The translations under genes and the position numbers were made by a program. 64,000 nucleotides of DNA from Ignavibacteriota bacterium (GTDB taxonomy: Bacteria; Bacteroidota; Ignavibacteria; UBA10030; BY39): contig QOQV01000005.1 in NCBI GenBank assembly GCA_003327435.1, positions 62,001 to 126,000 of the forward strand. Reading direction: 5' to 3'. The notes below the pieces were generated by a model. That model made no database searches and was not told the DNA's origin. It saw only the letters and a list, made by a program, of their open reading frames with translations. This document shows, one piece after another, positions 21,473 to 33,359 of this stretch. Numbering within the stretch: position 1 is the stretch's first letter; the number at the start of each line of letters is the position of its first letter.

Positions 21473-24400
21473 CTATTTGATAACAGCAATTTTTATTAGA
21501 GTAGCATTTTTATTTGAACTACTTTCCGCATTTATGTGTGCATAATAAATTCCACTTTGAATGTTCGAGACATTCCATACGACTTCGTTATCTATTCCAC
21601 CTGTAGCGTTAGTTTTAATTTCATCAACAAGTGTTCCTGATACATCAAATATTTTAATTGTAATGATAGAATTTTCACTCACATAAAAGCGTATGTTCGT
21701 TTCGTTTCCATAAACTGGATTAGGCCAGTTGTAAGCACGATTTGATGGCAAATACTCGCTTATCGGAGAACCTATCAATTCTGAATCATCAAAAGAGGAA
21801 TGGAGGATGTCTCTCTTGAAATTTCCCCACAATAGATTTTTGGATTCAGGTAATTGCCAGGTGTACAGATCACCATCAGAATTCGTTAAAACCAAAATAG
21901 CACCGGAATCATTCTCTCTACTCGACAAACCTAAATGACTCATCGCACCTGTGCTTGCTGAATATGGAAAACCGCTTACATACTTACCACTTGCTGAATA
22001 TGCCGCTATCAAATTATTTTTGCAGGCAACAAGCACATCTAAAACATCATCGCCGTTAATATCTGCAACGATAGGAGAACTTACCGCAGTGTCAGGCAGT
22101 GTTATAGGGAAATTATCTAAGGTTACACCTTCATAATTAAATGCATACAATTTATTACCAGCACTTATAATTAAATCTCTTGTTCCGTTTTTATCAACAT
22201 CAGAAATTGCAAACCCTATTATATTTACATCTGATATTTTTAGATATTTAGATTTAATATTTTCCAGATCGCATACTACAAAATCAGAACCATTTTGTTC
22301 AACAGATACCACAAAATCATTATGCAGCTGACTTCGCTTACCAGAAAATAGAGACCATTTATCTGATGATTTTGATAGTTTAAAACCTGTGTTCTCCGAG
22401 AAAATTTTTAATGAATCAGCTGATACAACTAAGATATACTTATCAGAAATTGCAATATCACTAATTTTTGAGCTGGTAATTTTATTTGATACACCTTCAT
22501 AAACACTAAGAATGCTTCTGATTATATGAAGATTTCCATTGTGATCACCTGCATATATAATTACCGGTGTAATTAACGAGGGTGATAAAGACACTGAAGC
22601 TGGTGTAGTAATCGTTGCATTGGTTTTATATTCATAAACAACAAATATCGAATCATATATTTCATCAGAATTAAAATCTTGAGCATTTAAGATTAAGATT
22701 GAACTATCCGAGGTGAGTACGAAATTTTCATTTTCAAACGCAGACAACGGATATTTTCCCCCTGCAGGGAAAAACAGTCCATTCGAATTTCTTGTAGCAC
22801 TTTTCCCATCAACAAAAAAAGCAAACACTGAATCACCATTTGTGATAAATATTTTATCTCTAAAAACCTGTGGTGGATGTGGAACACTTTTGAAATTAAC
22901 TGCTTTTAAAACTCTTGCAATAGGTTTGATGACATCGCTTCCAAAATAAACTTCTGAAGTCATTACTGGAGAGCGTTCTGAAAAATTTTTAATTGTGATG
23001 TGTGTTTGAGCAAAATCATTACTAAGAGTGTTTGGGAAAGTTTTGCTGGAAAACTCGTTTTTATACACAGGAGCGGAATTATCCTTAAACCAGAAATCCA
23101 AACTTGTTCCGTCTTCACTTCCTGAACCTGGACTTAAAAATCCATATGATTGTCCGATGTCCTGTGAACCATCTGCTTCTTCGAGGTCAACACCCCGTCG
23201 CTTCGGATCAGCGTTAATTGTATTTGATGCTATATTTTGCTCAATTACATTTTCATCAATGTGCCAGATTAAAATACCTCCATCAAAAAATCTTCCATCC
23301 TTGGTAACTCCACCCGGTAAACTCCAATCGGGTTCATCAATATCAATCAAAGTTCCAAATATTTCCGATTGATTGAGATAGTTGAATTTATCTGTGTCGT
23401 ACTGAAAAGTTTTTTGTATCGTGATTCCGTTATGTATAAAAGTGACCTTAGCACCATCTCTATTAGCATCTCTACTTCGATTTTCAATTAAATAATATTC
23501 TTTAGAATTAATATTCACTTTAAATATTGTATCTGGAGAAGAAAAACCAACAGCTGGTAAATTTAATACTGCATTTGAATCCACTTCTACAATCTTTAAA
23601 AATCCCAAATTGTATTTTTTTTCTAAGAAATATTTTTCCCATGCTGAGGGTTCTGGTGGAAATAATCCATTCCAGCTGAACATTGATTGTCCATCCATCA
23701 AACCAAATCTTCCAATCGCCGTTCGACCCGTCCTGGTGTTGAATAAATCTGGCAATCCAAGATAACTTCCAAAAGTACCAGTCAATATCCCATTGATACT
23801 TAGTTGAAGCAAAGTTGTTCCACCTACGGTGGAAATTTTTCTGTTTTCAGTTGAGGGAATAACCAAACTGTTCTTAATGAAAAAGTTACCGTTTTTAACT
23901 CTCACACCTTCATAATCATAGCCAAATATCTGTTTAAGATTATTAAGATTCATATAAAGAGTTGGAATATCATAAGGTGTTGGATCATATCCATAAATAC
24001 TCGTTAAATCTACATCTCTACCTGTTCCTGCATGAAATATTATAAAGGCATCGAATGTTTCAAACGGGAAATTCGGATAGAGTGAATCCACAATTTTCCA
24101 GGTATCCTCTATCAAATAACCAATTTCGGAAAAAGTTGTGCTTTTCTTGGGTGGACTATAATACTTCATCTGATTCGGTAGTTGAAAAATACTATCTAAG
24201 ATGTGATAATCGATTATTATTTTATTGTTCGTAACTTTTTTCCAATAATTTTTTAAGAACAGTAAATGATTTTCAAAATAATTTTTGCTGTGAGGTGGAG
24301 AATCAATTATTGAATCGGGACTGGAAAGATTAAATTTGCCGTTACCTGTTGTTCTATCGTCATTGTCTTCCACGAATTCCACCATTACTGCAAGTACTTT

Positions 24401-24562
24401 TACTGTATCAATTTTTGTAACGGTAGTTAAATTCGATAAATGAAATGAATCATCCCTCGATGAAATTTTCAAGGGATGATTCAAATCATAGAGAATTTGA
24501 GAAATAGAAATATAAGAAACGAGTGTTGCAAGTATAATTGCAAACAGGAGTTTATTTTTCAT
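21473..24562 (-). CDS. M6-like pseudoprotease, T9SS cargo
   Basis: The 1029-aa protein has a signal peptide and an M6 (immune-inhibitor-A-like) protease fold in residues ~50-430. Landmarks are VKVLAVMVEF, FDAFIIFHAGTGRD, SYLGLPDLF and the Met-turn-like GLMDGQSMF. The zinc motif expected before LGLPDL (HEFGH) reads GTFGS: both zinc histidines and the catalytic Glu are replaced, so it is probably inactive as a protease. A propeller-like region (about 560-930, with FG-GAP-like DVDKNGTRDLIIS and DINGDDVLDVLVA) follows, then a T9SS sorting domain (NWPNPVYGNETNIRFYV to IQSGIYYAHI). It lies directly downstream of porV. Confidence 0.85.
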   Translation of the reverse strand: MKNKLLFAIILATLVSYISISQILYDLNHPLKISSRDDSFHLSNLTTVTKIDTVKVLAVMVEFVEDNDDRTTGNGKFNLSSPDSIIDSPPHSKNYFENHLLFLKNYWKKVTNNKIIIDYHILDSIFQLPNQMKYYSPPKKSTTFSEIGYLIEDTWKIVDSLYPNFPFETFDAFIIFHAGTGRDVDLTSIYGYDPTPYDIPTLYMNLNNLKQIFGYDYEGVRVKNGNFFIKNSLVIPSTENRKISTVGGTTLLQLSINGILTGTFGSYLGLPDLFNTRTGRTAIGRFGLMDGQSMFSWNGLFPPEPSAWEKYFLEKKYNLGFLKIVEVDSNAVLNLPAVGFSSPDTIFKVNINSKEYYLIENRSRDANRDGAKVTFIHNGITIQKTFQYDTDKFNYLNQSEIFGTLIDIDEPDWSLPGGVTKDGRFFDGGILIWHIDENVIEQNIASNTINADPKRRGVDLEEADGSQDIGQSYGFLSPGSGSEDGTSLDFWFKDNSAPVYKNEFSSKTFPNTLSNDFAQTHITIKNFSERSPVMTSEVYFGSDVIKPIARVLKAVNFKSVPHPPQVFRDKIFITNGDSVFAFFVDGKSATRNSNGLFFPAGGKYPLSAFENENFVLTSDSSILILNAQDFNSDEIYDSIFVVYEYKTNATITTPASVSLSPSLITPVIIYAGDHNGNLHIIRSILSVYEGVSNKITSSKISDIAISDKYILVVSADSLKIFSENTGFKLSKSSDKWSLFSGKRSQLHNDFVVSVEQNGSDFVVCDLENIKSKYLKISDVNIIGFAISDVDKNGTRDLIISAGNKLYAFNYEGVTLDNFPITLPDTAVSSPIVADINGDDVLDVLVACKNNLIAAYSASGKYVSGFPYSASTGAMSHLGLSSRENDSGAILVLTNSDGDLYTWQLPESKNLLWGNFKRDILHSSFDDSELIGSPISEYLPSNRAYNWPNPVYGNETNIRFYVSENSIITIKIFDVSGTLVDEIKTNATGGIDNEVVWNVSNIQSGIYYAHINAESSSNKNATLIKIAVIK

Positions 24563-24585
24563 TATAATTTTGTTCTAATGATAAT

Positions 24586-25686
24586 TCAGTTGAGAAAACC
24601 CCAGTTAATTAAGAGCGTAAAGCGTAATGTTTCTGAAAGTGGATGATTTTCTTCGATAGCAGAAAGATAACTGAAATCAAAGCCGTAAATATCGTATCTG
24701 ATTCCTGCGCCGAAGGTTAAGAATTTTCTGTTTCCAAAACTGGGATCCTCATAGAAGTATCCGAATCTAATTGCAACTAGTTTAGGTGAACCATACCAGT
24801 ATTCGAGTCCAGCACCGATCGTTACTTTTCTCAATCCCGTGCCATCACCCCAGGCAGAAAATATTGCTTTGAAAGCATTATCTGATGTACCATCTGAATA
24901 ACGGCGAACGAGCGTTCTCTGGAAATCCACATTTGCCATAATATTGTTAAATTCGCTTTTCAAGATATTAAAGCCAAGACCAAGTCGCAGATTGGTGGGA
25001 AGCGGATCAGCTTGAGCTTCGTCGATATAGACAACTTTTGGACCTAAATTAGCGAGGTTAACACCAATGTTCATATCAGTAAGAAATTCACCATCCAGCA
25101 GTGGCTGTTTATAAAGAGCGCCAATATCGAAACTAAATGTATTGGCTATGCCTTTTCCCTGCTCTTCCTCGGTTCCGAATGGAGCCAGAGCACTGCGTAT
25201 AAAGCGAAGGTTTACACCAAGACCTAAATTTTCCATAACTTTGGTTGCATAACCTCCAGTAATTGCAAATTCATACGCTTTAAATCTACCGACTTCTTCC
25301 GGTCCACTGGATAAAGTTTTAATGAATTCACCAAGGTTAAGATAAATGATATTTGCTCCGATGGTACCTCCGAGTGCATCGAAAGAACCCTTGTAGCCCA
25401 GATATTCATAGAACAGATCCGACATAGCAAACTGAGGTAGCCAGTTAGCATGTGTTAAGCTAATCTCCTGACCAGTTTGGAAAGCCAGACCAGCTGGATT
25501 CCAGAAAATTGCCGAAGCATCATCAGCTAAACCAGTACCGGATTCACCCATACCACTTGCTCTTGAATTAGGAGCAATTAATAGAAATGGCACAGCTGAT
25601 TCACCCTGAGAATAAACTGAATCGCTAAGAATAATTCCAAATACCATAACCATTAAAATAATTGCTTTGATTGATAAGCGTTTCAT
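24586..25686 (-). CDS. porV: PorV-like T9SS outer-membrane protein
   Basis: This is a beta-barrel protein of the PorV/PorQ (FadL-related) family. After the signal peptide comes the family hallmark PFLLIAPNSRASGMGESGTGLADDASAIFWNPAGLA, with further barrel strands to the end. In T9SS, PorV binds the C-terminal domains of cargo and delivers them to the PorU sortase. I chose the ATG at 25686 because AAAGGAT lies 7 nt upstream and the signal peptide MKRLSIKAIILMVMVFG begins there; a longer frame to 25749 has no such site. It lies about 70 bp after porU, which fits the PorU-PorV attachment complex. Confidence 0.9.
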   Translation of the reverse strand: MKRLSIKAIILMVMVFGIILSDSVYSQGESAVPFLLIAPNSRASGMGESGTGLADDASAIFWNPAGLAFQTGQEISLTHANWLPQFAMSDLFYEYLGYKGSFDALGGTIGANIIYLNLGEFIKTLSSGPEEVGRFKAYEFAITGGYATKVMENLGLGVNLRFIRSALAPFGTEEEQGKGIANTFSFDIGALYKQPLLDGEFLTDMNIGVNLANLGPKVVYIDEAQADPLPTNLRLGLGFNILKSEFNNIMANVDFQRTLVRRYSDGTSDNAFKAIFSAWGDGTGLRKVTIGAGLEYWYGSPKLVAIRFGYFYEDPSFGNRKFLTFGAGIRYDIYGFDFSYLSAIEENHPLSETLRFTLLINWGFLN

Positions 25687-25755
25687 TGTTTTATCCTTTA
25701 ATTTTGACACATTGTTATTTAATTTAAAATCTTTATTGATTAATAGCAAAATTCT

Positions 25756-28700
25756 TTATCTCATAATTGATAATTTTTGAATAGCTTCAGTTGAGAACCG
25801 TCCGTCTTGAGTTTTTACAATAACTTTATATAAATATACACCATTAGCCAATTTTCCACCTTCTCGATCTCTTCCATCCCATTCAATTCTAACAAAATTT
25901 TCATGAACACCATATTTACGAATAAAATTCAATAATCTTCCAGCTACCGAAAAAATTTTTATTTCAACATCCACAGGAACGATTTGATTTTGATAAAATG
26001 TGAAAAATGTATTTTCAGAAAATGGATTAGGATAATTATAGACATCGCTTATCATCAACCCCTGGCCTGACACAACATTAAATATTGTTGAACTAACGGA
26101 TGCGTTGTTATAAACATCCCATGCACGGATTTTAATTGTATGAGAACCAATACTTAATCTACCAAACTGATATTCAATTATTCCTTCTTGATAACTATCT
26201 AATTTACTCGAATAATAAGGATTAAGATTTATACTTTCAGTTTGCTCATCTAACCAGGCTTCAATTCGATGGCCAATTCCAGTTCCTGTGGAATTTATTC
26301 CCGATTCATCTTTTAAATCAACAATTAGAAGCGGAGATTCAGGAACCACATCACCCGGTCTGAATGTACGATCTCGGAAATATATTTTTATTTCTGGTCC
26401 TTCGTTATCAACTGTAGCAGTCGTATCAGTACCATCAATTTTAAAACTTTCTGTAAATCCCATACCATCTGTTTGAGGATTTGAGAAATATACAGTTATC
26501 CTTCCATTTAATGTATCGTACGAAATATCTTTTGGGATGATAAAAGTTGTATTAAACCTACTATTTGAGATTGAACTCTTTCCATTAAATATAACACCGC
26601 CGGGAATTATATAAGTAAAATTATACCAATCCTTGAGAGTTATTTTTTTACTTGCATCATAGACAACCACCTGAGCTGTAGCCGAAAAATCTGGATCGAC
26701 TGCATTGACACGACCTGTTAGCTGAATTTTTTGCAATGCTTTTACACTAACTGAATTGTTTGTTGGTATTCCATTTATTGAATCAACTGATGAATACAAT
26801 TCAGGAAGTGCAAGGCGTGTCGAGGGATCTCCAAGTAGAAAATATTTTTTATCATTATCGGATCTATAAATTTGTTTAGTTCTATAAATTCCGTCTCCAA
26901 GTCGGGTTGATTGTATACTGTTATCTGGATTTAGTTTAAAAATTTGTCTGAAGAGTTCAATATTCATCTGTCTATTAGGTGCAGCATAAACAGCTCTTGT
27001 TGCAGAAAATACACCGATAGCTCCTGAATTTGGATAATTCACAAGTATTTCCCCTCCACTTTGATCACCGATTCCATCAAACTGTGAGAAATTACAGGTT
27101 GCAGCAATCAAATAAAAATATTTGCCTCCGTTTTTAAGTGAAGGAAAATCTGTTTCTCTTACAAATACCTGCTCATGAGTCCAGAGTCGTGGATTACCAT
27201 GGCCGGAAAAATTAATTATTAGTGTTCCTTCGTCTATTTGGCGAACAATTGCTTCATTCACGGCAGGTTTTCGACGTCCAGTTGCAGTAACAACCGTAGG
27301 ATAAGCACCCAAATAAATTTTTCTTTTTTCAATCGAATTTGGTGTAACAGCTGCAACATCTTCTGCCTGAGCGGTATGGAATATTCCATCATTCTCATTT
27401 GGTCCTGCAAGATCATCATCGCCAATATATGTAACGCGCATTTTCCAGGGATCAAACTTGGGATTTTTCTCATACTCTATTATTTTATCAACCAACCCAT
27501 TGGCTTCCGTAACTGAGCGCACAGCCAATCTGCCAATGGCAAGTGAAATCCTATTTGTGTTATCAAAAATTACATAATTATCATCTGAGGAATAAGATTC
27601 TATATCAATAAACGATTCTGTCGTTTCCCAGGGTGGTATCCAGTTTTGCGAAGCTGATGTTGTAATTCGTTTATAATCAAAATCTCCATCACCAAATAGT
27701 AACACATATTTTAATGCATTATTTGGGATGGCGTTGTAAGCATATTTTAGAAAATTTCTGATAGCCATTGGAGAAGGAATACCACCACCAAATTCATTGT
27801 AAACTTCATCAACATCAACGACTAATGTTTTCAGTTTGTTTTTTTCAAAACTCTCCCGATGATTTTTTAACCTATCTGCTGCATTTTTAAAATCCCTGTG
27901 CGCGATTATTATAAACTCTATTGGTTCACCGGATGTAACAGCCCCATGAATATTTTGATTATTAACACGCACAATATCAGAAACATTTTTATAACCATTT
28001 TTACCGATAACAAATATTTCCCTCGGTACTCCTGTAATTCCTTGAATCTGAAACGAAATCGCATTTCCCACAATATCTGATGTTGTAATAATTTTTACAT
28101 TATCAAGATCTGTTACATCAAAAATTTGAACATCGTTTGATGAAAATCCTTCTATTTTATATTTTAATACGGTATTTGTATCATGCGTGTGAAAATCAAA
28201 GAAATCATTCAGAGCTACAAGATTTCGGCTGTAGAATATTTCATACCAATCAAGGTATCCGATACCTGATGGATTATTGCTCGTGAAATATAATTTCAAT
28301 TCGCTCCTTGGTTCTGTAAAATTCGGGATAAAAGAAGTGTTCAACTGAGCAAACTTTGCCTGGGGATCACTGTAACTACCAATGAATGTTCCTGTAATTG
28401 TTGCATTTCCAATAATTTGACTGTGCTCGTAAACTGTAAAATAGGATTGTTGTAAATGGGCACGTGCTGCTAATCGAATTTTATATTCAATTTTTTCCTG
28501 AGGATTTAATGCAGGTAATGCTATTACATATGTCATAGAATTTCCCACACTGAAAGGTTGCCCTAACCATTCAATCCCTGAACCTAAAATATTGATTTTA
28601 TCATCTTCTCTGAATGTTTTTCCAAGAACAGTAACTGGTTGAAAGTATTCTGTAACATTCAACGATGGAATTGTATACATCCTTTTACCATTTTCTCCAC

Positions 28701-29751
28701 CATAAGTGAGCCAGTAAATGTTATCATCAGAAAAATGATGAGTGTAATGAGAAAAAGTTTTGGTTGCTGCATTATATTTCCAGCCGCTTGTTCCTCTGCC
28801 ATAGAAAAGAATATAGTCATCTGCATCTAAAGCATTTTGATTCCCTACGTCGCTTACATAGATAGCATTTTCTATTAAATCATCAGGCATTAAGTCAGCT
28901 GGAGAAAATGAAGGTTCATAACCTCCATTATTATATATCTTAATTGTTTTTGGATTTGTGCTAGATGGAATTCCGAGTTGTAGTAATTGCGAGCCACTGA
29001 TTTTGTAAATTCCATTCTCTCTAATTTTAAAACGATACCAAATACCTGATGAAAGGACACTGTTTACTTGTGTAGTTGGCTTTCGGTAAGCTCGAGCAGA
29101 AAACCAATTCTTTGCAATGTCATAATTAATTCCGATGCCTTTCAACATTTCATCTTCTTTTAAGTAAGTGGAGGCAAATTCTCTTGAACCGAAGTTCATT
29201 CTTATCTGAATTCTGCTATATTTTCTTATTTGTGCTGCTGATGGATTATATTGAATTGGATAAATTTTAATATTTCCAAATCCTGCCCCGCGAACACTTC
29301 CAATGTCTACTAATGTTACAATATTTTCTGGTACGAATTTATTAACCCCATATTCATCATTATCAATAATATACTCTGAAGCTAAAAATTCAGATTCATT
29401 TCTATACAAAGTTTTTATTGGCGGTATTTTTACTCCTTCAATAACTTCAAACTCTGCATCCACAATTTCAATATTTATATTTTCAAGTCCGGGTAAGCGC
29501 ACAGGAAACAATCTAAATTTTAAATCTGGAATACCAGGTTTATATGTAGGTTCTGATATTGAACCTTCAAATAAAAATTCTGTAAATCTCTCACCATTAA
29601 TATCAAATGATATGCTCTCCTTATAAAATGGTGAATATTCCAGAAGTAACTTAGAGTCGTTGCTCTCTATAATACTTATATCTGATTGTTGAGAGTAAGC
29701 CTGTACTGTAATTATCAGTATTAGCAATAATGTTTTAAAAGAATTTTTCAT
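25756..29751 (-). CDS. porU: Type IX secretion sortase PorU (C25 family)
   Basis: The 1331-aa protein has a signal peptide, an N-terminal prodomain-like region, and a gingipain-type C25 cysteine peptidase core at about 610-1000. It shows LKYVLLFGDGDFDYK, AIGRLAVRS, the catalytic His in IINFSGHGNP and the catalytic Cys in LIAATCNFSQFD. The C-terminus is a FlgD-like/T9SS-type sandwich (YNYPNPFSENTFFTFY, GKLANGVYLYKV). PorU removes cargo sorting domains and attaches cargo to the surface. It has no obvious Shine-Dalgarno site, and an intrinsic terminator hairpin ends only ~20 nt before its ATG. It leads a seven-gene unit with porV. Confidence 0.92.
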   Translation of the reverse strand: MKNSFKTLLLILIITVQAYSQQSDISIIESNDSKLLLEYSPFYKESISFDINGERFTEFLFEGSISEPTYKPGIPDLKFRLFPVRLPGLENINIEIVDAEFEVIEGVKIPPIKTLYRNESEFLASEYIIDNDEYGVNKFVPENIVTLVDIGSVRGAGFGNIKIYPIQYNPSAAQIRKYSRIQIRMNFGSREFASTYLKEDEMLKGIGINYDIAKNWFSARAYRKPTTQVNSVLSSGIWYRFKIRENGIYKISGSQLLQLGIPSSTNPKTIKIYNNGGYEPSFSPADLMPDDLIENAIYVSDVGNQNALDADDYILFYGRGTSGWKYNAATKTFSHYTHHFSDDNIYWLTYGGENGKRMYTIPSLNVTEYFQPVTVLGKTFREDDKINILGSGIEWLGQPFSVGNSMTYVIALPALNPQEKIEYKIRLAARAHLQQSYFTVYEHSQIIGNATITGTFIGSYSDPQAKFAQLNTSFIPNFTEPRSELKLYFTSNNPSGIGYLDWYEIFYSRNLVALNDFFDFHTHDTNTVLKYKIEGFSSNDVQIFDVTDLDNVKIITTSDIVGNAISFQIQGITGVPREIFVIGKNGYKNVSDIVRVNNQNIHGAVTSGEPIEFIIIAHRDFKNAADRLKNHRESFEKNKLKTLVVDVDEVYNEFGGGIPSPMAIRNFLKYAYNAIPNNALKYVLLFGDGDFDYKRITTSASQNWIPPWETTESFIDIESYSSDDNYVIFDNTNRISLAIGRLAVRSVTEANGLVDKIIEYEKNPKFDPWKMRVTYIGDDDLAGPNENDGIFHTAQAEDVAAVTPNSIEKRKIYLGAYPTVVTATGRRKPAVNEAIVRQIDEGTLIINFSGHGNPRLWTHEQVFVRETDFPSLKNGGKYFYLIAATCNFSQFDGIGDQSGGEILVNYPNSGAIGVFSATRAVYAAPNRQMNIELFRQIFKLNPDNSIQSTRLGDGIYRTKQIYRSDNDKKYFLLGDPSTRLALPELYSSVDSINGIPTNNSVSVKALQKIQLTGRVNAVDPDFSATAQVVVYDASKKITLKDWYNFTYIIPGGVIFNGKSSISNSRFNTTFIIPKDISYDTLNGRITVYFSNPQTDGMGFTESFKIDGTDTTATVDNEGPEIKIYFRDRTFRPGDVVPESPLLIVDLKDESGINSTGTGIGHRIEAWLDEQTESINLNPYYSSKLDSYQEGIIEYQFGRLSIGSHTIKIRAWDVYNNASVSSTIFNVVSGQGLMISDVYNYPNPFSENTFFTFYQNQIVPVDVEIKIFSVAGRLLNFIRKYGVHENFVRIEWDGRDREGGKLANGVYLYKVIVKTQDGRFSTEAIQKLSIMR

Positions 29752-29770
29752 TTATAATTTTGCCATAAAC

Positions 29771-29806
29771 TAAAAAACCGAATGTTTTAACCTTTAACAT
29801 TCGGTT
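29771..29806 (-). terminator. Intrinsic terminator 20 nt before porU
   Basis: On the minus strand an 11-bp stem (AACCGAATGTT with AACATTCGGTT, 29776-29806) encloses a 9-nt loop and runs into six T residues. It could end readthrough from the glycosyltransferase gene. However, a promoter for porU lies upstream of it, so any transcript from that promoter must pass this hairpin: it behaves like an attenuator. Confidence 0.85.
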
Positions 29807-29916
29807 ATATTAATAAACCATATCGCTGGATGTTAAAGGTCGTTTTTAATCATAAAATAGCCAGTTAAAGCAATCTGGCTTTAAGAGAATTAAACCTTTA
29901 ACAATTTTACGATATG
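29787..29916 (-). promoter_or_regulatory. Candidate attenuator leader of porU operon
   Basis: Three segments in the leader are mutually complementary. Segment C (29894-29903 plus 29910-29916) pairs with segment B (29831-29840 plus 29819-29825) in a 10-bp and a 7-bp helix, enclosing a small hairpin (AGCCAG/CTGGCT, 29859-29880). Segment B (29830-29840) is also perfectly complementary over 11 nt to 29790-29800, which includes part of the terminator's 5' arm and its loop. C-B pairing would leave the terminator free; B-terminator pairing would block it. The ligand or signal is unknown; I see no riboswitch class I can name and no convincing leader peptide. Confidence 0.6.
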
Positions 29917-29952
29917 TTCAAATCCTTTTTAATTTTTATAAAATTCAAATCA

Positions 29953-29981
29953 AATATATTAAAAGTTTTTGAGATTGTCAA
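29953..29981 (-). promoter_or_regulatory. Predicted promoter of porU operon
   Basis: TTGACA (29976-29981) and TATATT (29953-29958) are separated by exactly 17 bp on the minus strand, directly after the glycosyltransferase stop codon. Transcription would begin near 29946 and produce a leader of about 195 nt before porU. Confidence 0.7.
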
Positions 29982-30001
29982 GTATCTGAAAATGCAGCAA
30001 A

Positions 30002-30661
30002 TCACAATTTAAGTTTGTTCAATAGGTAGTTCAATTTCCCAAGAATTCCTAAATTATAACCATACTTTGAAGCTGTACCTCTACCAAGATGAAAAATATA
30101 TTGATTCAAGTTAAAATTTATTAACTTTAGACCATTTTCCAGAGCATTTTGCATATTTTCAAGGCAGGGTGCACCATGTTTCTGGAAAGGTTTTAAGTCC
30201 AAATAATGCGCACGCTTAAGCATCATACAAATTGGTCGAATATATGGATATCCAGACGCTCTGTCATCAGTCAGAAAACCACGCTTATTTAAATAAACTA
30301 TCTCACCGATAGCGTAATTAGAATCGTCATGCTCTAACATATTTAACATTTCTTCAATGAATCCACCTTTAAGAACCTTACAATCTGAATCAATGAATAG
30401 CAAATAATCGGTATCAGAGAGAAGAATCGCTTGATGCATTGCAGGACCGTGATGTAAATTCTTCTTGTTTGTAATAAATTTTATATAATCAAAGTGATTT
30501 GATAATTTTTGTAGCTGTTCAACTGAATCATCGTTTGAACCGTTGTCGATTAATATCAGTTTTAAATCTGGATAAATATTTTTCAGTGAGCTTCCTGCTT
30601 CCAGTGTCAGCTCAGGTGTTTGATAATTAATAATTACAGATGTAACTTTATTTTGATACAC
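30002..30661 (-). CDS. Family 2 glycosyltransferase
   Basis: The 219-aa protein is a GT-A fold glycosyltransferase: SVIINYQTPELTLEAGSSL at the N-terminus, LIDNGSNDDS for nucleotide-sugar binding and a DxD-type motif in LLFIDSDCKV (near 88-97). It would add a sugar to an unknown acceptor. The start is GTG at 30661, 7 nt after the porZ-like stop. It is the last gene of the crp-PHP-ribH-porZ unit. Association with a PorZ-like gene may point to surface polysaccharide or lipopolysaccharide, since T9SS cargo can be attached to A-LPS; that is inference. Confidence 0.88.
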   Translation of the reverse strand: MYQNKVTSVIINYQTPELTLEAGSSLKNIYPDLKLILIDNGSNDDSVEQLQKLSNHFDYIKFITNKKNLHHGPAMHQAILLSDTDYLLFIDSDCKVLKGGFIEEMLNMLEHDDSNYAIGEIVYLNKRGFLTDDRASGYPYIRPICMMLKRAHYLDLKPFQKHGAPCLENMQNALENGLKLINFNLNQYIFHLGRGTASKYGYNLGILGKLNYLLNKLKL

Positions 30662-30668
30662 GACCGGA

Positions 30669-32882
30669 TTATTTAATTATTGCAATTTTCCCTAAACCCA
30701 CTGTGCTACCATCTGCTGATGAAGCGACTATAATATATATTCCGCTTGAAACCTTATTTCCATTTGTGTCACATCCATCCCATGAAGCCAGTCGACCACC
30801 GGGAGTTGGCAAATTTCTAACTAACTCGCCGCTTGAGGTCAAAATTTTTATTGAAGAATTTTCGACCAGTCCATCAATTAAGATTTGATTGTGAGTATTG
30901 ATAATAAATGGGTTAGGTGAAATTTTCAATTCAGTAAAACTTTGTACCGGAGTTATTGAATAAGTTTTTAGCACGGATAAACCTTTTTCGGTTCCAAAAT
31001 AAACAGTTCCATCATTGCCATTCATTGCAATTGAAACTACATTATTGTCCAAAAGTTTACCACCAGTGTTTTCAAAAGTGTATTGTTGAAGTATAGTTGT
31101 TCCGTCTGGATTCAGGACATAAACACCTAAAGAAGTTGCAACCCATTTTTGATTCAAAGGGTCTACTAAAATATCGTTTATCTTTTGACCTCTAAGCGGA
31201 CTATAAACTGCGATTCGATTTAATGGATTTAGTGCATCGTAAATTATGTTGATCCCGGCATCCATTGTACCAACCCAGATTTCACCGTCTCTATCTACTG
31301 CAATAACTGAAACATTGTCGCTATTAAGTCCATGCGATTTTGTTACTCTTCCCCATCTTGTACCGGGTTGCATACCACGAACTGTATCTTTTTCATTATA
31401 GAAAAATATTCCACCACCATTTCTTCCAGTCCAGAACCATTTTGTTCCATTATGATCCATCGTGATGCCGACAGATATAAAAGATAAAGGAGAAATTATA
31501 TATTCAAAACTTGAATCTGGATTCAACACAGCAAGAACAGTGTCTCTTCGCTCATTGAAAATATTAATCCATACTTTTCCATCACTATCAGTAACAGTCC
31601 CAGCACAAACAGTATAATTGGGATTCGTAACAACTGATGAAGGTAACCCATTTCTGGAATTGAACACTTTTTTTATTTCGCTATCACTTCCAACAAGTGC
31701 AATCCCAGGTCCCCAACCACTAATCCATTTAACATTATCCTTACCAACATTAACCTTGTAATAATCTGAACTGCCTAAAATTGGATATTTTGAAAAATTA
31801 TACTGATACCACAAATCATTTTCGAATCTTAAAAATCCCTTCCCGTTTACAGTTCCAGTTCCAGCCCACAAAGTACCTTTTTCATCCACAGCTAAACCGA
31901 GCAAATTATTTGTGGGTGGACAATTTGGTAAAATCCAATATTGAAGTGTATCCTCAAGGCATATAATTCCAGAATCTTCCGTTCCGATATAAATACTTTT
32001 ACTTGAAACTTTCAATGATTTTAAATTAGTCGAAAAATTACTGGAAATTAAAGTTAGATTACCATCTATGATTCTCCATACTTCAGAATTTGTGATGAAG
32101 AAAATTGTATCACCAAAAGTCTCGGCTGCGATAATCCTCTTTCCAGAAGTTCCATATGTAACATTCCATCGAATGCCATCAAATATTGCCAGACCATAAG
32201 AAGTTGCAGCATAAATTTGATCCTTAAAAATGAAAATTCTCATTACATTATTATCTGGTAATCCATCTAAAATTGTATAAACTTTCCATGCTTCAGGTGA
32301 AAGTAGATTTGGGTGTGATCGAAGAGCTCGTGCGACGCCTGAATTAGTCGCAACCCAGATCGTATCGTTTATAATTAAAACGGAGTTAACCTTACCACTT
32401 ATCTGCGGAGAAAGACCAAATTTTGTATAAGTATCGCTAAATTGTTCTCTTGCGATTAACAATGTATGTAAACCAATTTCTGAACATATATACATCGTAT
32501 CCTTAAACTGGAAAAAGCTGTTTATTCTTTTATTGATTTCAGTACTGAAATAGATATCGTTATAGTAAACCCATTTCTTTCTATTTTTTAGATGGTGGAT
32601 ATAGCCATTTTGAGCTCCAATCCAGATATTTCCCTGTTCATCTAAATAAATGCTTGAGACATCTGTTGTTTTTAATCCGTGAACTGTGGTGAATTCTCCG
32701 TAGGAATTATTCACAATATCGTAACTAAATACACCGCCTGTGGTAGCAGCCCAAAGCTCATTATTTTTCAAATCAATATCATTAACATTGTTTTTTGAAG
32801 TAAAAGCTTTCCACTCGCCAGGTTGAGCAAAAAGATGAAAAGATAATTGTAGAAAAAATATTAGGTAAAAGATTTTTGGCAT
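30669..32882 (-). CDS. porZ: PorZ-like two-propeller T9SS protein
   Basis: The 737-aa protein has a signal peptide (FYLIFFLQLSFHLFA) and then two seven-bladed propellers of the two-component-regulator type. Repeats resemble ExxNIWIGAQNG, DGEIWVGTMDAG and GTVYFGTEKGLSVL. It closes with a FlgD-like/T9SS C-terminal domain (ISPNPFIINTHNQILIDG to VSSGIYIIVAS). The N-terminus WKAFTSKNNVNDIDLKNNELWAA-type and the overall length match PorZ, a member of the PorU-PorV-PorQ-PorZ attachment complex that delivers A-LPS to PorU. The nearby porU and porV strengthen the call. A generic propeller cargo protein is the alternative. Confidence 0.75.
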   Translation of the reverse strand: MPKIFYLIFFLQLSFHLFAQPGEWKAFTSKNNVNDIDLKNNELWAATTGGVFSYDIVNNSYGEFTTVHGLKTTDVSSIYLDEQGNIWIGAQNGYIHHLKNRKKWVYYNDIYFSTEINKRINSFFQFKDTMYICSEIGLHTLLIAREQFSDTYTKFGLSPQISGKVNSVLIINDTIWVATNSGVARALRSHPNLLSPEAWKVYTILDGLPDNNVMRIFIFKDQIYAATSYGLAIFDGIRWNVTYGTSGKRIIAAETFGDTIFFITNSEVWRIIDGNLTLISSNFSTNLKSLKVSSKSIYIGTEDSGIICLEDTLQYWILPNCPPTNNLLGLAVDEKGTLWAGTGTVNGKGFLRFENDLWYQYNFSKYPILGSSDYYKVNVGKDNVKWISGWGPGIALVGSDSEIKKVFNSRNGLPSSVVTNPNYTVCAGTVTDSDGKVWINIFNERRDTVLAVLNPDSSFEYIISPLSFISVGITMDHNGTKWFWTGRNGGGIFFYNEKDTVRGMQPGTRWGRVTKSHGLNSDNVSVIAVDRDGEIWVGTMDAGINIIYDALNPLNRIAVYSPLRGQKINDILVDPLNQKWVATSLGVYVLNPDGTTILQQYTFENTGGKLLDNNVVSIAMNGNDGTVYFGTEKGLSVLKTYSITPVQSFTELKISPNPFIINTHNQILIDGLVENSSIKILTSSGELVRNLPTPGGRLASWDGCDTNGNKVSSGIYIIVASSADGSTVGLGKIAIIK

Positions 32883-33359
32883 CTACTTTTTCTTTTTAGA
32901 AAAAGATTTATACAAATTCAGAAGTTCAATAGCACTAAGTGCAGCATCCCAACCTTTGTTTCCGCTTTTAGAACCAGCACGCTCGATTGCTTGCTCAAGC
33001 GTTTCTGTTGTTAGAACTCCTAATGTAATTGGTATTTCAGAAGTCAAACCTAATTGTGCAATTCCTTTTGTTACCTCTGCTGCGATGTAGTCGAAATGTG
33101 GTGTATCACCTTTAATTACACAACCAAGACAAATCACTGCGTCATAATTATCAGATTGGATTATTCTTTGAGCCACCTGTGGGATTTCGAAAGCACCAGG
33201 GCAATATATTGCCGTTATATCGTTTAAATTTGCTTCATGCCTTTGAAGACAATCCAGAGCTCCTTCAAGTAGACGATTTGTAATAAATTCATTAAACCGG
33301 CTAACAATTATTGCAATTTTAAAACCTTTTGCATTCAGGTTTCCACTAATTGTATTCAT
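32883..33359 (-). CDS. ribH: 6,7-dimethyl-8-ribityllumazine synthase
   Basis: This 158-aa protein is a full-length RibH. Landmarks are [21 protein letters not shown], the substrate loop [25 protein letters not shown] with the proposed catalytic His, and the C-terminal [21 protein letters not shown]-type helix. It condenses 5-amino-6-ribitylaminouracil with dihydroxybutanone phosphate in riboflavin synthesis. Its stop directly abuts the porZ-like start (no gap), so the two are cotranscribed. No other riboflavin genes lie nearby. Confidence 0.97.

Follow-up and report, generated by a model that had tools for sequence, protein, structure and literature searches.

A leader RNA with competing helices precedes porU-porV in Ignavibacteria and is a candidate transcription attenuator of a T9SS operon

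In the Ignavibacteriota genome considered here, the gene for the T9SS sortase PorU lies behind a short region in which a promoter and an intrinsic terminator precede the coding sequence, which raises the question of whether this region encodes a switch for the genes downstream or merely closes a neighbouring transcription unit. We addressed this question in a 64,000-nucleotide stretch of DNA, hereafter the window, for which an initial annotation had proposed an attenuator in front of porU and porV. All the features described are on the minus strand, and the leader is located between the stop codon of a glycosyltransferase gene and porU. The genes of this locus are the following:

30669-32882, minus strand: porZ, upstream of the glycosyltransferase gene
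30002-30661, minus strand: glycosyltransferase gene, the co-directional upstream neighbour, which ends at 30002
25756-29751, minus strand: porU, T9SS C-terminal signal peptidase/sortase (Peptidase_C25, PF01364; NF033707, 1.8e-289), the gene proposed to be regulated
24586-25749, minus strand: porV, which follows porU as the second gene in a presumed operon (PF19572; NF033710, 2e-76)

The matches to NF033707 and NF033710 bear out the names that porU and porV had been given earlier. Both genes are separated by 6 nt, with porV downstream, and PorU was present in all 60 relatives among which it was searched. On the same strand, porZ, porU, porV and a T9SS-dependent inactive M6-like gene are clustered at 21473-33359; within this cluster, the glycosyltransferase, which is of family 2, separates porZ from porU, and ribH is found upstream of porZ.

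The promoter is followed by a leader of around 195 nt with helices P1 and P2, the latter formed by segments C and B, and then a strong terminator. From the 5′ to the 3′ end, the following elements were distinguished:

29953-29981, minus strand: sigma-70-like promoter, with TTGACA at 29981-29976, a 17-nt spacer and TATATT at 29958-29953 (11 of 12 consensus matches; a sequence match only)
29923-29926, minus strand: AGGA(G) element, conserved close to the leader's 5′ end; about 33 of the 41 leaders in the alignment have GG here
29910-29917, minus strand: 5′ strand of P1, which holds a conserved UAU(A/C)GA-type motif and pairs with 29818-29825 (supported by the swap test described below)
29892-29904, minus strand: segment C (UUGUUAAAGGUUU), the 5′ strand of P2, which pairs with B at 29830-29840
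29859-29882, minus strand: variable hairpin within the loop of P2, which folds and differs in length and sequence among relatives
29830-29840, minus strand: segment B (ACCUUUAACAU), partner of C (P2) or of the 5′ arm of the terminator (antiterminator)
29818-29825, minus strand: 3′ strand of P1, which pairs with 29910-29917
29790-29800, minus strand: 5′ arm and loop of the terminator (T5), antiterminator partner of B, with 11 pairs to 29830-29840 (supported by coevolution)
29772-29805, minus strand: intrinsic terminator, with a hairpin at 29805-29777 and TTTTT at 29776-29772 (paired in 96% of cells; compensatory changes in 6 of the 8 pairs)

This anatomy was observed on re-examination at the coordinates that had been proposed for the promoter, P1, P2 (C:B) and the terminator, and the pairing claimed between B and 29790-29800 was recovered with its 11 pairs, so that the pairings of B with C and with T5 are mutually exclusive. 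The terminator ends approximately 20 nt before the porU ATG (29751), a gap that leaves little room for a separate promoter. A simple terminator scan, restricted to loops of at most 8 nt, did not list this terminator because its loop comprises 9 nt in the fold.

We consider it highly likely that the leader acts in cis to attenuate transcription of porU-porV, a reading in which termination at the hairpin and read-through in vivo, the use of the antiterminator, the direction of control and the very existence of a signal are inferred from the sequence. According to this model, transcription would start at the promoter (29953-29981), and in the emerging leader C would pair with B to form P2 while P1 would close the domain, thus making B unavailable. 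With B sequestered, the terminator (29772-29805) would form and most transcripts would stop before porU, i.e., the default state would be off. A signal that keeps B free of C, or of the P1/C domain, would instead let B capture T5; once B:T5 is formed, the terminator would be blocked and porU-porV would be transcribed.

The predicted energetics are in line with such a default. The leader folded with -46.9 kcal/mol, compared to -28.4 +/- 3.8 kcal/mol for shuffled sequences (z = -4.8), and the form with P1, P2 and the terminator reached -42.5 kcal/mol versus -29.3 kcal/mol for the antiterminated form. As the terminated fold is thermodynamically favoured, porU would be off by default, to be turned on by an input that opened the P1/C domain or occupied it; given the difference of 13 kcal/mol, switching would need either a strong input or kinetic control. 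When C was held unpaired and transcription had reached the terminator loop, the antiterminator was the best computed fold. Measured against shuffled sequences, the structure of the leader exceeds chance, and it is the comparative evidence that is decisive.

According to the initial annotation, the attenuator would have been refuted if the pairing were lost upstream of porU in relatives; this comparison was run, and the pairing proved to be kept, with compensatory changes present. We employed a swap test in which each genome's segment was paired with the partners of other genomes, both globally and within families, for 44 porU leaders of one order. Since the genomes, most of which are draft assemblies, are related, the permutation counts are not strict probabilities, and weight was hence placed on the within-family version and on controls. 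Duplexes with the genome's own partner were stronger than those with within-family swapped partners for P1 (-16.4 versus -13.4), for P2 (-18.7 versus -16.8) and for the antiterminator B:T5 (-12.6 versus -11.1), with 0/20000 permutations in each case, whereas two control segments of the same leaders showed no significant own-versus-swapped effect against T5. Furthermore, B was the best partner of T5 inside the leader, a median of 0% of other windows being equally good. The earlier proposal that C:B pairing permits termination and B:terminator pairing prevents it thus finds support in the own-versus-swapped prediction for B:T5 across these 44 leaders, although termination itself remains an inference.

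Coevolution was also observed in the alignment of 41 leaders, from which RNAalifold recovered P2 and the terminator unguided. Compensatory changes on both sides were present in 12 of the 20 pairs of these two helices, cells with double changes numbered 49 against 16.3 in shuffles (0/500), and sliding the partner by a single column lowered pairing from 90% to about 50%. The sequence of T5 differs between families, and B changes along with it; what is conserved of the third segment (GTTAAAGG, in the terminator) is its pairing, which different sequences maintain, and not the sequence itself. The GC-rich member L056, for example, has GCUAACGGCGUGUUCC as C, GGAACAGUCCGUUGC as B and GGCUGUUCC in the terminator arm, which are completely different sequences. 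In some members (L020 and L062 among them), B and T5 pair only weakly. Judged from the sequences alone, this conserved folding choice very probably represents a real, previously undescribed gene switch.

A shared layout was found in all six families of the order, namely TTGAC(A)-N17-TATATT, GGAG, UAU(A/C)GA, UUGUUAAAGGUU (C), the variable hairpin, AACCUUUAACAA (B) and the terminator. A TTGAC-N17..20-TATNTT promoter occupies the equivalent site in 38 of the 44 porU leaders, and the terminators of the order have conserved CCGAA/UUCGG arms and reach almost to the porU start codon. Families f4 and f5 have porU leaders (e.g., L046 and L062) in which the closing stem P1 is followed by a U-run of its own, which results in two tandem terminator-like structures.

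With regard to distribution, a covariance model of the leader found one match in the genome of origin (E 9e-17; next hit 0.84) and matched 117 of 391 genomes of the class; when 396 genomes of the phylum were searched with this model, no match was obtained outside the class at E <= 0.001. Linkage to porU was observed throughout the order, where 75 of the 82 matches (in 82 genomes) immediately precede porU and share its strand; for the remaining seven, porU was located on another contig, in most cases a broken one. Nearly all of the 75 linked leaders are at most 140 nt from the inferred start; four read as about 600 nt away since their PorU match starts well inside the protein. Two further arrangements were noted: in L113 (G066, family f13), around 1.3 kb including other coding sequence separates the leader from the porU-like gene, and L134 and L148 (G273:C47:9341-17524, family f24) are associated with two tandem porU-like genes approximately 250 nt apart.

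The leader likewise precedes porU in families f12, f17, f9 and f20. In f17, the best partner of T5 is not B but the segment just 3′ of C (e.g., -17.2 kcal/mol, next best -4.9), and the antiterminator of this family is accordingly predicted to be wired differently. The leaders of f14, f24 and RBG_16_34_14 (L041) carry no terminator; here, codons 2-12 of porU are paired with the leader segment that runs from GGAG to CUAC, and in these sister families the own pairing was stronger than the swapped one (-21.5 versus -15.3 kcal/mol; 0/20000). Signal-peptide codon usage is a possible source of some of this complementarity, but hardly of such a gap. On the basis of this predicted pairing, the terminator-less leaders read as a form of the same switch that acts on translation. 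Terminator/antiterminator riboswitches and attenuators are likewise known to act on transcription in some lineages and on translation in others. The AGGA(G) element is found with both types of expression platform, and GGAG, UAU(A/C)GA and C are conserved across the two; no defined ligand pocket was identified in them. In three genomes of genus g150 (family f24), a related RNA also precedes an operon of a membrane protein gene and yceI (E values of 7.5e-8, 6.8e-5 and, for the third genome, 0.09). In f24, the leader homologues before this operon (L115, L116 and L123) consist of a single long hairpin followed by a U-run, and the membrane protein encoded upstream of yceI has around 265 aa and belongs to no Pfam family.

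The leader matches no Rfam family: the Rfam 15 covariance models, which include T-box and known riboswitches, gave no match in the window or in 23 related loci. It resembles terminator/antiterminator riboswitches in its promoter, its 5′ domain, a segment shared by a domain helix and the antiterminator, and an intrinsic terminator just before the gene, but it has no known aptamer or ligand and precedes a T9SS sortase gene. With leader-peptide attenuators of the trp and ilv type it shares three competing segments (here C, B and the terminator arm); it differs from them in lacking a leader ORF, and a mechanism of this type was discarded given that none of 44 leaders has an AUG, GUG or UUG 3-12 nt after an SD-like element (only canonical starts were considered). 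The leader is also long, mostly paired and of similar size to 6S RNA (RF00013, RF01685). However, no 6S model matched this locus, and 6S-like candidates, with E values of about 1e-6 and under the Rfam cut-off, occupy loci away from porU in 6 of 31 relatives (among them G005:C6:595413-595612, G009:C47:22486-22713, G017:C199:519-759 and G023:C22:19724-19976); the search with RF01685 found nothing, but had no positive control. CsrA was rejected as a universal sensor, as the genome of origin has none and only 4 of 16 relatives have it.

Known control of T9SS genes, through PorXY-SigP and ECF sigma factors in Bacteroidia, operates at promoters. It also targets genes for T9SS components, but differs from the porU leader, where a sigma-70-like promoter is combined with a putative RNA switch. 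A literature search limited to open-licence papers found no RNA-based control of T9SS genes, including any RNA attenuator for a sortase. In Flavobacterium psychrophilum, porU is among the genes behind an ECF-type (SM6) promoter (PMC9723704).

Several other explanations have to be weighed against attenuation. That the hairpin is an ordinary terminator of the glycosyltransferase gene, accompanied by chance secondary structure, can practically be set aside: although that gene is co-directional in the window and ends at 30002, a consensus promoter intervenes between it and the hairpin, and the pairings coevolve. In addition, the arrangement is kept in two members examined in which a divergent glgA-like gene lies upstream of the leader, where the terminator cannot belong to the upstream transcript, and the comparative data therefore refute this reading. 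It is also very unlikely that the leader is a free-standing structured RNA, be it 6S-like or a trans-acting sRNA, which merely adjoins porU. Its own promoter and terminator, its single copy and the U-run behind P1 in f4 and f5 would suit such an RNA; the 6S-like candidates of relatives, however, are located elsewhere, and the leader precedes porU wherever the contig permits this to be seen, with little or no gap after the terminator. Moreover, the start region of porU is the pairing partner of the leader's 5′ element in sister families, which argues for control of porU in cis.

Constitutive attenuation without a sensor, with a fixed, low read-through into porU and a ratio tuned kinetically by the alternative pairing, is unlikely but cannot be disregarded, as neither a ligand-like pocket nor a signal is known and the default fold is strongly the terminated form. 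Nevertheless, a fixed ratio would hardly require two competing helices that coevolve over six families, and GGAG, UAU(A/C)GA and C are kept in both the transcriptional and the translational form and recur in f24 ahead of a different operon. AU-rich competing helices in the leader studied here and in several families, together with a start region buried in a long hairpin in the translational version, would be expected of an RNA thermometer, in which heat melts P1/P2, or the porU start hairpin of sister families, and frees porU expression; we regard this as improbable, since P2 conserves sequence (UUGUUAAAGGUU) and not stability alone, and GC-rich members have much stronger stems (-31 kcal/mol for P2 of L056). 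Finally, a 30S subunit or ribosome at GGAG and a near-cognate AUA, AUC or AUU might cover P1/C and free B, or the porU start; such coupling to initiation is one possible input for the attenuator model rather than a full alternative, and a doubtful one. In 79 leaders, AUA, AUU or AUC occurred 95 times and AUG never at 3-12 nt after an SD-like element, with one canonical start versus around 43 predicted from the background of the same leaders, and SD-like sequences precede 17 of the 37 ORFs of the window versus 4.1 expected, which indicates that SD is used in this genome. Against it, AUN is absent from that spot in most f12 members and in several others, the downstream reading frames are not conserved, and the contrast is inflated by shared ancestry and by the conserved motif as such. 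The pattern of GGAG and AUA/AUC/AUU, which most leaders show, could reflect a ribosome-sensing step, though the conserved motif alone could explain it.

Attenuation thus remains the best reading, in which the leader would represent a new cis-acting RNA family attenuating porU-porV, its regulation in vivo not having been shown. More tentatively, and as a possibility to which we would not commit ourselves, it may define an orphan riboswitch-like class of Ignavibacteria, whose conserved 5′ element would sense a signal and set the level of the T9SS sortase, with an output shifted between antitermination and hiding of porU start codons and a reuse before the membrane protein-yceI operon in one genus. 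The leader is compact and conserved in dozens of genomes, and its promoter-leader-terminator format is suited to in vitro work, which makes a search for the signal feasible. If a class-wide RNA switch is indeed dedicated to PorU, the last step of the T9SS, i.e., cargo cleavage and anchoring, would be adjusted separately, and some internal signal would report on that step.
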